A DNA stretch of 64,000 bases from an uncultured Pelagibacteraceae bacterium (GTDB lineage Bacteria > Pseudomonadota > Alphaproteobacteria > Pelagibacterales > Pelagibacteraceae): positions 1 through 64,000 of the forward strand of contig CACHRU010000001.1 of NCBI GenBank assembly GCA_902582345.1, read 5' to 3'. This document shows positions 21,641 through 58,379 of this stretch, piece by piece; within the stretch, counting starts at the first letter, position 1; every line of letters begins with the position of its first letter. The notes below the pieces were generated by a model, which was not told the origin of the DNA, did no database searches, and saw only the letters and a list, made by a program, of their open reading frames with translations. The position numbers and the translations under genes were made by a program.

Positions 21641-24508
21641 TCAAGCAGCTTCATCTTTGTATTCATCCATTGATGGGCAAGAACACACAAGATTTCTATC
21701 TCCGTAAACATTATCAACTCTCGCGACTGGCGGCCAATATTTATTGTTTTTTACAAACTCAGTTGGAAAAGCCGCCTCTTCTCGAGTGTATTTATGTTTC
21801 CATTCATTTGAAGCTAATTCAATGTAAGTGTGAGGAGCGTTTTTTAATGGATTATCAATTTTATCAAATTTTGATGACTCCACTAAATCAATCTCTTTTT
21901 TTATTTTAATTAATGCATTACAAAACTTATCTATTTCTTCTAAATTTTCACTTTCTGTAGGCTCTATCATTATTGTTCCTGCAACCGGCCAAGACATAGT
22001 TGGGGCATGATAACCAAAATCAATTAATCTTTTAGCTAAATCTTCTTCTGAAATTCCTGATCTAGCTTTAATTGGTCTAATATCTATTATGCACTCATGG
22101 GCTACATTTCCATTTTTTCCAGTGTATAAAACTTTGTAGTCTTTAGATAATTTCTTCGAAATATAATTCGCGTTTAAAATTGAAATTTGTGAAGCTTTTT
22201 TCAAACCCTCGGCCCCCATCATCTTTATATACATCCAAGATATAGGTAAAATACTTGAACTTCCCCAAGGTGCAGCCGAAACAGCTCCCATTCCGTTTTT
22301 TGGTCCTGCATCTTTAATTATTGCATGAGTTGGTAGAAAATCAGCTAAATGTTTTGCGCACGCAATTGGTCCCATTCCTGGTCCTCCACCTCCATGTGGA
22401 ATGCAAAATGTTTTATGCAAATTAATATGACAAACATCTGGTCCAAATTTTCCTGGTTTTGCAATACCAACTAAAGCATTTAAATTTGCTCCATCCATAT
22501 ATACCTGGCCACCATGTTTATGAATAACATCACAAATTTCAATAATTTTTTCTTCAAATACTCCATGAGTTGACGGGTAAGTAACCATTAAAGCGGCTAA
22601 ATTTTTTGAATATTTTTCTGCTTTATTTTTCAAATCATCTAGATCCACGTTACCGTCTTCATCACAATTTACAACAACTACTTTCATCCCACTCATTTGA
22701 GCACTTGCTGGATTTGTTCCATGCGCAGAGTTCGGAATTAAACATACATCTCGACTACCTTGTCCATTACTTTCATGAAATTTTCTTATTGTCATTAACC
22801 CAGCGTATTCACCCTGAGCGCCAGAATTTGGTTGTAAAGAAACTGCGTCATATCCGGTAATTTCTTTTAAATCATTTATCAGGTCATTAAATAGAATTTT
22901 ATACCCTTCCATTTGGTCAGTTGGTACAAATGGATGAGGCAAAGAAAATTCCTTCCAAGTAATAGGCATTAACTCGGCTGTTGCATTTAGTTTCATAGTA
23001 CAAGAACCTAGAGCAATCATAGATCGATTTAGTGCTATGTCACAATCTTCGAGTTTTTTTAAATACCTTAGCATCTCAGTTTCTGAATGATATTTATTGA
23101 AAACAGGATGAGTTAGATACTTTGATGTTCTTAAAAGGTTTTTAGGAAGATTATTAAGCTCAACTTTTACATCTTGATTAATTATTTTAGAAACTCCAAA
23201 TACTTTTAACAATGTATTAACATCATTAAGTTTTTTCGCTTCGTCAAATGCTACTGATATGTATTTGTCATTAACTTTTCTTAAGTTAATATTCTCACTT
23301 AAGGCACTTTGATAAATAGAGTTTGTTTTATCTTTTGTTTCAATTGTTACTGTGTCAAAAAAATGGTCTGACAAAATTTGGAAGCCGCCTTTTTTAATTT
23401 CATCAGCAAATAATTTTGCTAATTTAGAGGTTCTATTGGCTATTTTAAGTATACCATCAGGCCCATGATAAATAGCAAAGGCTGCAGATATTATTGCTAA
23501 TAATGCTTGGGCTGTGCATATATTACTGGTTGCCTTATCTCTTCTGATATGTTGCTCCCTAGTTTGTAAAGAAAGTCTGTATGCTTTTTTTCCGTGTCTA
23601 TCTTTCGATACACCTATAATTCTACCAGGCATTGATCTTTTAAATTCTTCTTTAGTAGCAAAAAATGCTGCATGTGGACCGCCGTAACCCATAGGAATAC
23701 CAAACCTTTGAGCACTACCTACAGCTATATCAGCGCCAAGCTCTGCTGGAGTTTTTAATCTGGCTAAGGATAATAAATCACATATTAAAATTGCTTTTCC
23801 ATTTTTTTTATGAATTAGACTAATACTTTCGCTTGGATCTATTATCTCACCCAGAGTTCCAGGATAAGCTAAAACCCCGCAAATTATATCTTGATTAATT
23901 TTTGTAAGCTCCTTTTTTTCATCGCCTATAATAAGTTCTAATCCAAAAGGCTTTGTACGAGTTTTAATAAGATCAATTGTCTGTGGGTTGCAATTACTTG
24001 AAATAAATATTTTTTTTGCGTTTGTTTTATCTAATCGTTGAGATAAGCCGACTGCTTCTGCTGTAGCAGTTGCTTCGTCAAGTAAAGAAGCGTTAGCAAT
24101 ATCCATTCCTGTAAGATCAATAATTGTTTGTTGAAAATTTAAAAGCATTTCGAGACGTCCTTGAGCTACTTCAGGTTGGTAAGGTGTATAAGAAGTATAC
24201 CAGCCAGGGTTTTCTAGGATATTTCTTAAGATTATATTTGGAGTAATAGAATTATAGTATCCCATACCAATAAAGTTTCTAAAAATTTTATTTTTTTTAG
24301 ATATAGATTTTAATTTTTTTAAGGCATCATTTTCAGACAACGGCTCATCTATATTAAGATCATCTTTTAATAAAATTTTTTCTGGAACAGTATTTTTCAT
24401 TAAATCTTCAAGCGAGCTATATCCTACATGTTTCAGCATTTTTGATTGCTCATCATCTGAAGGTCCAATGTGTCTTTTTATGAATTCTTTTGAGTTATCA
24501 TCAATCAT
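21641..24508 (-). CDS. gcvP: Glycine dehydrogenase (decarboxylating), P protein
   Basis: 955 residues, the full-length fused P protein. Seen: N-terminal RHIGPSDDEQSKML, YTPYQPEVAQGRLE, and the PLP site HINLHKTFCIPHGGGGPG in the C-terminal half. It decarboxylates glycine and passes the aminomethyl group to lipoyl-GcvH. Its start lies next to the gcvH stop without a gap. The lipoamide dehydrogenase (L protein) is not in the window. In SAR11 relatives the system supports conversion between glycine, serine and one-carbon units. Confidence 0.98.
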   Translation of the reverse strand: MIDDNSKEFIKRHIGPSDDEQSKMLKHVGYSSLEDLMKNTVPEKILLKDDLNIDEPLSENDALKKLKSISKKNKIFRNFIGMGYYNSITPNIILRNILENPGWYTSYTPYQPEVAQGRLEMLLNFQQTIIDLTGMDIANASLLDEATATAEAVGLSQRLDKTNAKKIFISSNCNPQTIDLIKTRTKPFGLELIIGDEKKELTKINQDIICGVLAYPGTLGEIIDPSESISLIHKKNGKAILICDLLSLARLKTPAELGADIAVGSAQRFGIPMGYGGPHAAFFATKEEFKRSMPGRIIGVSKDRHGKKAYRLSLQTREQHIRRDKATSNICTAQALLAIISAAFAIYHGPDGILKIANRTSKLAKLFADEIKKGGFQILSDHFFDTVTIETKDKTNSIYQSALSENINLRKVNDKYISVAFDEAKKLNDVNTLLKVFGVSKIINQDVKVELNNLPKNLLRTSKYLTHPVFNKYHSETEMLRYLKKLEDCDIALNRSMIALGSCTMKLNATAELMPITWKEFSLPHPFVPTDQMEGYKILFNDLINDLKEITGYDAVSLQPNSGAQGEYAGLMTIRKFHESNGQGSRDVCLIPNSAHGTNPASAQMSGMKVVVVNCDEDGNVDLDDLKNKAEKYSKNLAALMVTYPSTHGVFEEKIIEICDVIHKHGGQVYMDGANLNALVGIAKPGKFGPDVCHINLHKTFCIPHGGGGPGMGPIACAKHLADFLPTHAIIKDAGPKNGMGAVSAAPWGSSSILPISWMYIKMMGAEGLKKASQISILNANYISKKLSKDYKVLYTGKNGNVAHECIIDIRPIKARSGISEEDLAKRLIDFGYHAPTMSWPVAGTIMIEPTESENLEEIDKFCNALIKIKKEIDLVESSKFDKIDNPLKNAPHTYIELASNEWKHKYTREEAAFPTEFVKNNKYWPPVARVDNVYGDRNLVCSCPSMDEYKDEAA

Positions 24509-24889
24509 TTAACTTGGATTCTCCTTACAAAATTTATCGTACTCATCTTTGGACATTAATGTTTCAAGTTCGCTTTTATCTTTAATCTTTAATTTAAAGA
24601 ACCAATTCGCTCCCTCTGGATCTCCATTAACACTACTTGGATCATCAGCTATAGCTTTGTTACCTTCAGTAACTTCTCCAGAAATTGGTGAGTAAACATC
24701 GCTAGCTGCCTTAGTTGACTCTACAACAGCGGCTTGCCCTTCTTTCTCTATAGATTTTCCTGCTTCAGGTACTTCAACAAAAACTATATCTCCAAGCATT
24801 TCAGTTGCATGTTTAGTTATACCAACTGTTGCTATATCACCTTCTAAAGTGACCCACTCATGTTTCTTTGAAAATTTTTTTTCACTCAT
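24509..24889 (-). CDS. gcvH: Glycine cleavage system H protein
   Basis: 126 residues with the lipoyl-domain signature [20 protein letters not shown]60 is the lipoylated lysine. HEWV near residue 10 and the C-terminal NWFFKLKI block are also canonical. It carries the aminomethyl group between GcvP, GcvT and the L protein. It lies 14 bases after gcvT and directly abuts gcvP. Confidence 0.97.
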
Positions 24890-24903: not shown

Positions 24904-25998
24904 TTATTTAACATAACTTTTTTTGTAAAATGGCAGTTCTGAAACTTTACCTTCATATTTTTTCCCTCTGACCTCAAGCTGTATTGAAGTTCCAATTTCA
25001 GAAAATTCCGATTTAATATAACCCATCGCAACTGGTCTGTTTACACTTGGACCAAAAGTTCCACTTGTAACAAACCCTATTTCTTCACCATTAGAAGAAA
25101 AAATTTTTGTATTTTCACGAGCTATCACTTTTCCCTCGGGTTTTATACCTACTCTTATCTTTTCACTTCCATTTGTTAATAAATCTTTTATTTTGTTCCA
25201 ACCATTAAAACCACCGACTTCTTTCCTTTTTTTTGCAATTGCCCATTTAAGATTAGCTTCTACAGGATTTATCTTTTCAGTTAAATCATGACCGTATAAA
25301 CATAGTCCTGCTTCTAGTCTTAATGTATCTCTAGCACCTAAACCTATAGGCTTGACTCCATTTTTCATTAAGAAATTGATAAGATTTTTTACTTTTTTAT
25401 TAGAAATTGAAATTTCAAAACCGTCCTCACCTGTGTATCCAGATCTTGTTATGTAAAGACTTTCACTATCATAACTAAAATTATTTCCCGACATGAATTT
25501 TAATTCTGAAACGCCTGGTATGAGTTTTTCCAGAATTTCTACTGACTTTGGTCCTTGTAAAGCTATTAAAGATAAATCATTGTTCAAAAAATACTTATGA
25601 TTTTTATCTAAAAATTTAGATATATGTTTGATGTCATTTTCTTTACAAGCCGCATTTAAAATTATACAGAAGCCTTTATTTGTTTTTGTAACGATTAAAT
25701 CATCTATAATTCCACCACTTTCATTTAGTAAAAAAGAATATTTTGAGTGATTGACTTTTAATGACTTTAAATCCGAAGGAATAATTTTTTCTAAGGACTC
25801 AACTAGTGTTTCATCTCCCTCTAAAAAAAATTGCCCCATATGTGAGACATCGAAAAAACCTGCATGGGTCCTTGTTGAAATGTGCTCTTTAACTATTCCA
25901 TCTTTATATTGGATAGGCATTTCATAACCTGCGAAAGGAACAAATTTTGCTCCTAAACTTTTGTGCAAATCGTATAAAGCTGTTTTTTGTACACCCAT
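24904..25998 (-). CDS. gcvT: Glycine cleavage system T protein (aminomethyltransferase)
   Basis: 364 residues from the ATG at 25998. An in-frame ATG at 26019 lies inside the P1 helix of the second riboswitch aptamer and has no RBS of its own; the downstream ATG has AAAGAG 5 bases ahead and the usual family N-terminus ([24 protein letters not shown]). Motifs: [45 protein letters not shown]. It transfers the methylene group to tetrahydrofolate and releases ammonia. First gene after the glycine riboswitch. Confidence 0.97.
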
Positions 25999-26018
25999 AA
26001 TAACTCTTTTGTACCCCA

Positions 26019-26157
26019 TCTGTTTTGGAACCTGAGAGATTTACTCCTTCGGTGAGGCAAAGCCTGCTTTCCAGAGTTATTACGGCAACGGTCCTTTTGC
26101 CTGAGAGTTTCCGGGGTGGTTGCTCCTTCGGCGCTATATTTTATAGACTCTCCCGTT
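26019..26157 (-). promoter_or_regulatory. Tandem glycine riboswitch in the gcvT leader
   Basis: On the minus strand two aptamers follow each other. Aptamer I (about 26157-26090) has GGGAGAG, the core GCCGAAGGAGCAA and CTCTCAGGCAAAAGGAC. Aptamer II (about 26076-26019) has ACCGAAGGAGTAA and CTCTCAGG, closed by TCTG (26072-26075) with CAGA (26019-26022). This is the classic cooperative glycine riboswitch. A 10-base segment of the aptamer II 5' side (26073-26082) is exactly complementary to the gcvT RBS and start region (25998-26007), so glycine binding should free the RBS, giving an ON switch. No terminator with T run is visible. Confidence 0.95.
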
Positions 26158-26200
26158 ACAATCGGACTTTCGTTTATTATGTCCTAAAAGTCAAATTATT

Positions 26201-27067
26201 TTACTCGCTAATTTCTTTTGATTTATCAAAACTTTTTAACACAACAGCTGAAATTATTACAGAACCACCAATAAATACACTTAATGGTGGTATCTCGTTC
26301 AAAAAAATCCAAACCCATATCGGAGCACATATGGTTTCTAATAACATTAGTAACCCTACTGTTAATGATTGAGTAGTTTTAGTGCCAATTGTTACGCAAA
26401 TAAATCCAAATGCAAGTTGAGGAACCCCTAGTAAAAAACCCATAATAATATCATTAAAAGAAAATGTTAAACTACTTGCCAAAAACAATCCGTAAATTCC
26501 ACTAAAAATTCCTGAATAAAAAATAGCTGGAACCATATCAAGTTTTGGAAATTTTCTAATTATCATCACAAGAATAGTAAAGTTAATTGGTATTGCAAAA
26601 GAGATGATGTTTCCAATAAAAGTGCCTTGATTGATAGAATTTCCAACCATAATAAACATTCCGATGATAGCTAAAATAATTGCTGCAAAACCTTTTAAAG
26701 AGATTTTCTCCTTAAGAAATAAGTAGCCAAATATTGCTAAAAAAATTGTTTGTGTGCTGATTATAAAAACTACATTAGCTACTGTAGTCATTGACATAGC
26801 GGCAATATAGGCTACAAAACTTATGGACAAAAATAAACCTGCGATAATTGCTGGAAATCCAGAAGTTTTAATTACATTAATCGTATTTTTTTTATAAGTT
26901 AAGACCAAAAAAATTATTAAAGCAATTATGAAAAAAAAAGATCTAATTAATAGTATTTGCCACATATCATCTGTTTCGAATGATCTTATAATTAATCCTC
27001 CCCAGCTTAAAAAAAATCCTCCGAGCAAACAAAGTATATATCCTGGTATTTTATAAATTAATTGCAT
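26201..27067 (-). CDS. EamA/DMT-family transporter
   Basis: 288 residues, about ten transmembrane helices in two similar halves, as in the drug/metabolite transporter superfamily. Seen: LLGGFFLSWGGLIIRSFE in helix 1, SFFFIIALIIF, the end of repeat 1 with FLKEKISLKGF, and the end of repeat 2 with LLETICAPIWVWIFLNEIPP, the usual EamA signature. Substrate unknown. It overlaps the MATE gene by one base and precedes the riboswitch leader of gcvT by about 40 bases, in the same direction. Confidence 0.9.
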   Translation of the reverse strand: MQLIYKIPGYILCLLGGFFLSWGGLIIRSFETDDMWQILLIRSFFFIIALIIFLVLTYKKNTINVIKTSGFPAIIAGLFLSISFVAYIAAMSMTTVANVVFIISTQTIFLAIFGYLFLKEKISLKGFAAIILAIIGMFIMVGNSINQGTFIGNIISFAIPINFTILVMIIRKFPKLDMVPAIFYSGIFSGIYGLFLASSLTFSFNDIIMGFLLGVPQLAFGFICVTIGTKTTQSLTVGLLMLLETICAPIWVWIFLNEIPPLSVFIGGSVIISAVVLKSFDKSKEISE

Positions 27068-58304: not shown

Positions 58305-58316
58305 ATACAATTAAAA

Positions 58317-58373
58317 CCAGGTATTTGAACTATATTGTACGCCTGACATTTCGTCGAAGTACTAAAAAAGGAG
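58317..58373 (+). promoter_or_regulatory. SAM-V riboswitch over the metY RBS
   Basis: CAGGT (58318-58322) pairs with GCCTG (58341-58345); GTAC at 337-340 can pair with GTAC at 359-362 as the pseudoknot, with a small TTCG/CGAA hairpin between. AAGGAG (58368-58373) follows directly, 6 bases before the ATG. The sequence TTGTACGCC and CGAAGTACTAAA agree with SAM-V as described in Pelagibacter. SAM binding should mask the RBS, so the two tandem aptamers would repress transcription and then translation. Confidence 0.88.
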
Positions 58374-58379
58374 AAAAAA

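Follow-up and report, generated by a model that had tools for sequence, protein, structure and literature searches.

We examined a 64,000-nucleotide stretch of DNA from an uncultured Pelagibacteraceae (SAR11) bacterium (contig CACHRU010000001.1, positions 1 to 64,000; hereafter the window), which carries on its minus strand a tandem glycine riboswitch followed by the genes gcvT-gcvH-gcvP (25998-21641), and asked how the riboswitch might be coupled to gcvT. The first gene, gcvT (24904-25998), encodes the aminomethyltransferase or T protein (Pfam GCV_T, 6.3e-83; GCV_T_C, 2.1e-23) and is followed on the same strand by gcvH (24509-24889; GCV_H, 1.5e-42) and gcvP (21641-24508; GDC-P, 8.3e-189). The two tandem aptamers ahead of them both match RF00504 above its gathering score of 32 bits: aptamer I (26165-26079) with 69.5 bits (E 2e-12), and aptamer II (26084-26010) with 46 bits by itself (E 1.2e-8 for one genome). 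The window's nearest named relatives, likewise uncultured Pelagibacteraceae assemblies, show GcvT identities of up to 97%. A preliminary description of the locus had given the P1 helix of aptamer II as TCTG with CAGA, and we read it in the same way, with the 5' strand UCUG at 26075-26072 and the 3' strand CAGA at 26022-26019, both on the minus strand. Both are invariant in all 43 distinct rows of a MAFFT alignment of 44 rows (alignment A1), so that the P1 pairs are uninformative on covariation, either way.

Complementarity between aptamer II and the gcvT start region

As the sequence shows directly, the minus-strand segment TAATAACTCT (26082-26073) is perfectly complementary to AGAGTTATTA (26007-25998), whose last base, A25998, begins the gcvT ATG (25998-25996). 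This 10-base complementarity had been pointed out in the preliminary description, which understated it: with G-U pairs allowed, the helix grows to 13 pairs between the anti-start strand CCGTAATAACTCT (26085-26073) and its target AGAGTTATTATGG (26007-25995), and the entire gcvT ATG is covered. When the 43-base downstream region was shuffled letter by letter and compared with the 20-base upstream strand (n = 20000), a run of at least 13 pairs with G-U allowed arose in 2 shuffles and a Watson-Crick run of at least 10 in 13.

The target comprises a possible Shine-Dalgarno sequence AGAG, a spacer and the ATG, and its 10-base part had been described as spanning the ribosome-binding site and the A of the ATG. 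The second part of that description stands, as the ATG is covered; the first has to be toned down, since AGAG appears to be a weak Shine-Dalgarno candidate and it is mainly the start codon that is covered. AGAG precedes 6 of the 58 open reading frames counted in the window against 3.8 in shuffles, which is not a clear enrichment. Shine-Dalgarno-like motifs are in general sparse upstream of these reading frames (AGGA before 10 of 58, shuffles 3.9; GAGG 6, shuffles 1.4; GGAG 5, shuffles 1.7), which were all ATG frames of at least 150 codons on both strands, gene status unchecked. SAR11 starts may rely little on Shine-Dalgarno pairing.

The comparison with relatives covered 162 parsed gcvT loci of Pelagibacteraceae, namely the window, 80 named contigs and 81 further loci. 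Because two collections were used, some genomes are probably included twice (L026 and L048 have identical GcvT rows), and the 48 distinct strand pairs are a fairer counting unit than the loci. Dropped before counting were copies of the window or of L002 (L001, L003, L004), loci ending within the riboswitch (L033, L117), one in which the script did not locate the riboswitch (L123), two with a too divergent aptamer I landmark, which were read by eye (L129, L130), and a single aptamer that does not belong to gcvT (L202); 20 additional loci were read and kept out of the 162.

An ungapped complementary run between the CUCU-ending strand of aptamer II and the start region was present in 162 of 162 loci, with 13 pairs in 91 of them, 12 in 40, 11 in 19, 10 in 9 and 8 in 3. 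It fully covers the start codon in 118 loci; this count is approximate because the first in-frame ATG served as the gcvT start, a choice that is mistaken in L034 at the least. In the 80 named relatives, both strands are nearly constant and the spacer between them is variable; as the strands hardly vary, these relatives by themselves cannot tell pairing from sequence. Over all loci, five types can be distinguished by their 5'/3' hexamers: TAATAA/TTATTA in 115 loci, TATTAA with TTAATA or TTAGTA in 34, AATAAA/TTTATT in 4 (plus one locus with TTTAAA), ATATAA/TTATAT in 2 and TAAAAA/TTTTAA in 2. Four loci carry one one-sided change each, and every such change gives a G-U pair. Runs within a type measure 8-12 pairs versus 6-8 across types, and the spacer from the matched GGG to the helix ranges from 4 to 16 nt.

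Counted over the 48 distinct strand pairs, positions 4-9 of the helix are paired in 284 of 288 cells, compared with 246.2 ± 3.7 for shuffled partners (0 of 3000 shuffles as good). The ten pairs are formed in 96.5% of the cells of alignment A1 versus 34-53% when one strand is slid by 1-3 columns, and the covariation score of 0.166, against 0.071, was reached by 0 of 500 shuffles. A quick GcvT tree of 48 rows, from which L006 was omitted as too short, places each type in one group and requires at least four changes of type, although some forks are weakly supported. These results support an anti-start helix that is conserved by pairing with compensatory change and not by sequence, which is the distinction that the preliminary description had proposed to check in related genomes.

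A second ATG lies upstream at 26019-26017, in frame with gcvT and within aptamer II. An ATG occupies the equivalent place in 115 of the 162 loci, in 25 of them in frame with gcvT and in 18 open to it, where about one third of such ATGs would be in frame by chance; these frame counts share the approximation of the start codon noted above. We rejected this ATG as the gcvT start because it is open and in frame in just 18 loci, in agreement with the preliminary description, and it is best read as part of the aptamer.

Promoter-like sequences and the poly-C/poly-G pseudoknot

Upstream of aptamer I, a -35-like TTGACT (26194-26189) is followed exactly 17 nt downstream by a -10-like GAAAGT (26171-26166), both on the minus strand. 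TTGAC stands 37-43 nt ahead of the aptamer I landmark GGGAGAG in 109 of the 152 gcvT loci that have this landmark and, among other or unassigned loci of Pelagibacteraceae, at the same distance in 15 of 17 (12 more loci are without the landmark). Seventeen bases beyond it lies GAAAGT, GAGAGT or a similar sequence, with A as the second base in 114 of 124 cases and T as the sixth in 122 of 124. A generic sigma-70 scan detected no promoter at the riboswitch, and the promoter call is based on this conservation.

The promoter-like pair ends at 26166, adjoining the first base of the Rfam match. Judged from sequence, it would place the transcription start near 26160, in aptamer I P1, which agrees with the marine read starts reported in the available part of PMC5069720, which fall on the first P1 nucleotide or within 15 nt upstream of it. 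Such a start would leave little room for a leader that pairs with the linker, as in the P0/kink-turn helix, which is probably absent, and the linker would be free for the start region. The leader sequence CATAATAA, considered as a second anti-start element, was dropped because it sits in the spacer of the promoter-like pair and is probably untranscribed. No terminator-like site was found at 25900-26300.

A possible long-range pairing connects the two aptamers: the P3b loop of aptamer I contains ACCCC (26117-26113), which matches GGGGU just 3' of aptamer II P1 (26017-26013). Loop and tail covary, with the matching variants UCCC/GGGA, CCCA/UGGG, ACCCU/AGGGU and CCCAA/UUGGG in Pelagibacteraceae and GCCCC/GGGGC, GCCCUC/GAGGGC and GACCCC/GGGGUC in other Alphaproteobacteria. 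Own partners matched with a score of 4.95 versus 4.47 for shuffled ones, and 0 of 2000 partner shuffles were as good in either set, that is, in 175 Pelagibacteraceae loci (84 distinct) and in 43 other loci (42 distinct); 9 loci were unparsed in this test. The MAFFT alignment, in which the G-run shifts register, gave weaker support: 74.9% of the cells pair, a value that 11 of 500 shuffles reach, and the figure is 75.9% at a slide of -1.

The covarying P3b loop of aptamer I and the G-run after aptamer II place the riboswitch in the poly-C/poly-G subclass. We had found this pairing by covariation and rejected it as a new discovery, as the available part of PMC13104608 already contains it (citing Torgerson et al.). 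The pseudoknot shares with the aminomethyltransferase riboswitch pseudoknot cited there that it covaries, here in SAR11 and in other Alphaproteobacteria, and differs from that class in nothing new in kind. It is located between P1 and the start region in the window, where it may hold aptamer II P1 shut.

Proposed switch and alternative explanations

Based on these findings, we propose that the tandem glycine riboswitch controls the translation of gcvT, and of gcvH and gcvP through the operon, and that glycine turns translation on by way of the anti-start helix; we assign this reading a probability of roughly 0.85. Transcription would start at or just before aptamer I P1 and leave little or no leader, probably without P0/kink-turn. 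In the absence of glycine, a strand formed by the linker and the 5' side of aptamer II P1 (CCGUAAUAACUCU) would pair with AGAGUUAUUAUGG and hide the start codon. Binding of glycine would let the folded aptamer II retain its P1 (UCUG/CAGA), presumably aided by the pseudoknot ACCCC/GGGGU that adjoins it, whereupon the inner anti-start pairs would be lost and the start region, including its outer pairs, would be released. The start region is complementary to a strand that the folded aptamer needs, with an overlap of three bases with P1, and such a platform is most naturally read as a translational ON switch.

The predicted folds agree with this proposal in part. For the window segment 26162-25969, RNAfold, which leaves pseudoknots outside the model in all folds, gave a best fold of -44.9 kcal/mol that contains the anti-start helix, while aptamer II retains stems resembling P2 and P3; the helix thus takes the place of P1. 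The program formed 12 of the 13 anti-start pairs beside a 7-pair aptamer I P1. Enforcing P1 while keeping the start region free of pairs gave -33.6 kcal/mol. Across the 162 loci, for which shorter segments were folded, this gap averages -11.4 and ranges from -17.4 to -2.7, and the minimum-energy fold contains at least 8 helix pairs in 159 of them.

Several observations weigh against the proposal. The predicted OFF fold lies 11 kcal/mol below the fold with P1 formed and the start region free, and enforcing P1 alone gave -37.1 kcal/mol with nine anti-start pairs persisting. P1 and the anti-start helix have just UCU (26075-26073) in common. Three loci (L127, L128, L143) have other minimum-energy folds. 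The outermost helix positions 10-12 are paired in 100 of 144 cells, compared with 95.1 ± 2.9 for shuffled partners (208 of 3000 as good), and alignment A1 shows both-side changes at only 2 of 10 pairs (a count reached by 138 of 500 shuffles) and 8 further pair types (reached by 73 of 500); A1 breaks up the start region in the rarer types, which are therefore undercounted. Pairing is poor in genus g12, where L134 and L141 pair over 8 bases up to an A-A mismatch and the parser-dropped loci L129 and L130 show by eye an interrupted helix and 7 pairs. In L138 the run is 8 pairs long, and L196, which matches 'Ca. Pelagibacter ubique' HTCC1062, has TAAG in place of AGAG with the start codon still covered.

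The claim of the preliminary description that P1 and RBS sequestering exclude each other consequently has to be narrowed. It appears to hold for the inner pairs, which contain the shared UCU, and not for the nine outer pairs that survive an enforced P1 in folds without the pseudoknot, so that the pairing by itself gives no full exclusion. The pseudoknot, aptamer docking and folding order probably supply the rest, and the energy gap would need to be bridged by tertiary contacts and ligand or decided by the order of folding.

Those same nine pairs, together with an OFF fold far more stable than the ON fold, would fit a real helix whose braking is constant or tuned in some other way, glycine working mainly through a different route such as transcription attenuation, Rho or RNA decay. 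We consider this explanation improbable. The helix uses the strand of aptamer II P1 itself and is conserved with it, the region lacks a terminator-like site, and a Neisseria gcvT relative is reported to be under translational control in the available part of PMC13104608. Very improbable in our view is a conserved AGAGTTATT-ATG that is merely a favourable initiation sequence with incidental complementarity. The near constancy of both strands in the 80 nearest named relatives would fit such a sequence, and complements come cheaper in AT-rich DNA; against it stand the compensatory changes on both strands across five types, the covariation, a run length matched by so few shuffles and the lack of a clear enrichment of AGAG before other reading frames. 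Least likely of all is an OFF switch with an anti-start helix favoured by glycine, for which we found no supporting point: the helix takes UCU of aptamer II P1, so ligand-bound P1 disfavours the inner pairs, glycine-breakdown genes are expected to be glycine-induced, as in Neisseria (PMC13104608, available part), and 'glycine-activated' stands in the title of a SAR11 riboswitch paper known from reference lists.

Known systems, distribution and other riboswitches

Glycine riboswitches of SAR11 before gcvT and glcB have been known since 2007-2009 according to the available parts of PMC2211319 and PMC2704228, the latter of which lists that of HTCC1062 before gcvT at 649763-649953. The window shares with this tandem RF00504 riboswitch the gene and the bacterial family; it differs in genus code (g1 for the window genome, g4 for HTCC1062) and in being of the TAATAACTCT/AGAGTTATTA type. 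In genome G026, matches coincide with the coordinates of both listed HTCC1062 riboswitches, and its gcvT locus L196 has the compensated pair CATATTAACT/AGTTAATATG. In the literature searched, which included the available parts of PMC6944388, PMC12452182, PMC3160333 and PMC13198564 and mostly lacked subscription papers, we did not find the anti-start pairing described; Tripp et al. 2009 may already describe the SAR11 platform.

A parallel is gcvT of Neisseria gonorrhoeae, for which the available part of PMC13104608 reports a glycine-induced translational ON switch in which aptamer 2 pairs with the gcvT start region, and considers a poly-C/poly-G pseudoknot possible as well. The window would likewise hide its start region with a strand of the second aptamer; the hiding strand there would be the linker with the 5' strand of aptamer II P1. 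Tandem riboswitches with P0/kink-turn have the same two aptamers and linker, whereas the promoter-like pair of the window would leave almost no leader and the linker would be turned on the start codon. Earlier papers already contain the SAR11 riboswitch of gcvT, glycine ON switches that act on translation and the poly-C/poly-G pseudoknot, and the gcvT platform adds a well-supported case of a known type, with no new mechanism.

A platform restricted to SAR11 was rejected because other Alphaproteobacteria pair better with their own than with swapped partners. In 43 of the 49 fetched loci (the remainder were unparsed or unassigned), CUCU-anchored pairing scored 5.00 for own and 4.34 ± 0.12 for swapped partners, with 0 of 1000 swaps as good. 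Twenty-six of the 43 score at most 4.3, little beyond CUCU itself; several of the best cases (L218, L230, L172, L153, L219, L163) lie at or just before the start codon. A cruder, unanchored test found a run reached by fewer than 5% of shuffles in 6 of 41 loci. In these 41 loci a median distance of 156 separates the P1 strand from the start, about twice the 76 of the 162 SAR11 loci. Nine non-alphaproteobacterial loci were examined, four of which lack the landmark, and no conclusion was drawn from them. By its sequence, the platform appears to be the compact SAR11 form, present in every parsed gcvT locus, of a feature found in parts of the Alphaproteobacteria.

A broader proposal, which we regard as evenly poised between right and wrong, is that CUCU of aptamer II P1 serves as a built-in anti-Shine-Dalgarno sequence that has repeatedly been extended along the linker in Alphaproteobacteria to match the local start. 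SAR11, having lost the leader that would keep the linker in P0, would have made linker and P1 strand into a start-codon clamp of at most 13 pairs that evolves by compensatory change, and the malate synthase copy of the same genome would use J3/1 instead.

SAR11 bacteria belong to the most abundant cells of the ocean and possess few protein regulators, and RNA switches therefore matter for their handling of glycine. The pairing described here would be an exact and testable switch for which the natural types provide ready-made compensatory mutants (in another type the linker is TATTAACTCT and the start side AGAGTTAATA). It also offers a simple rule for terminator-less glycine riboswitches, which is to compare the aptamer II P1 strand and linker with the start codon.

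Outside the window, the same genome has a second such tandem riboswitch, which precedes malate synthase (L002 1501-1673; G000:C1:221096-221252 plus start codon). In it and in five other non-gcvT loci of the same genus (L002, L214, L237, L238, L240, L248; malate synthase was tested for L002 only), aptamer II J3/1, which reads GUACCAAU or a variant of it, forms 7-8 pairs with the start region, AUUGGUGC or AUUGGUAC. Another strand may do the hiding in these loci; cross-pairings score equally, so this is no covariation proof. In 16 of 16 non-gcvT loci of the g4 type (L017, L131, L174, L176, L180, L191, L197, L198, L200, L210, L211, L212, L250, L252, L254, L255), the linker CATAACAC opposes GTG(C/A)TATG, a single mismatch inside the helix is preserved (C in 14 loci, A in 2) and the start codon AUG lies opposite CAU, as if the helix were tuned weaker. 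L176 sits at the listed glcB riboswitch of HTCC1062.

The single-aptamer locus L202 (G074:C1:240203-241130) is a glcB-type riboswitch that by eye has an aptamer I-like front and an aptamer II-like end, as though its middle had dropped out between the repeats; tandem loci have two matches, G074 a single one at this place. A glycine riboswitch match was found in 313 of 397 genomes of the window's family, and under stricter filters in 0 of 49 genomes of the sister family f115 of the same order (G510-G558). The window further contains an IMES-2 RNA motif (853-713, minus strand; 157.8 bits, gathering score 54.7) and a SAM-V riboswitch aptamer (58310-58376, plus strand; 71.4 bits, gathering score 41).
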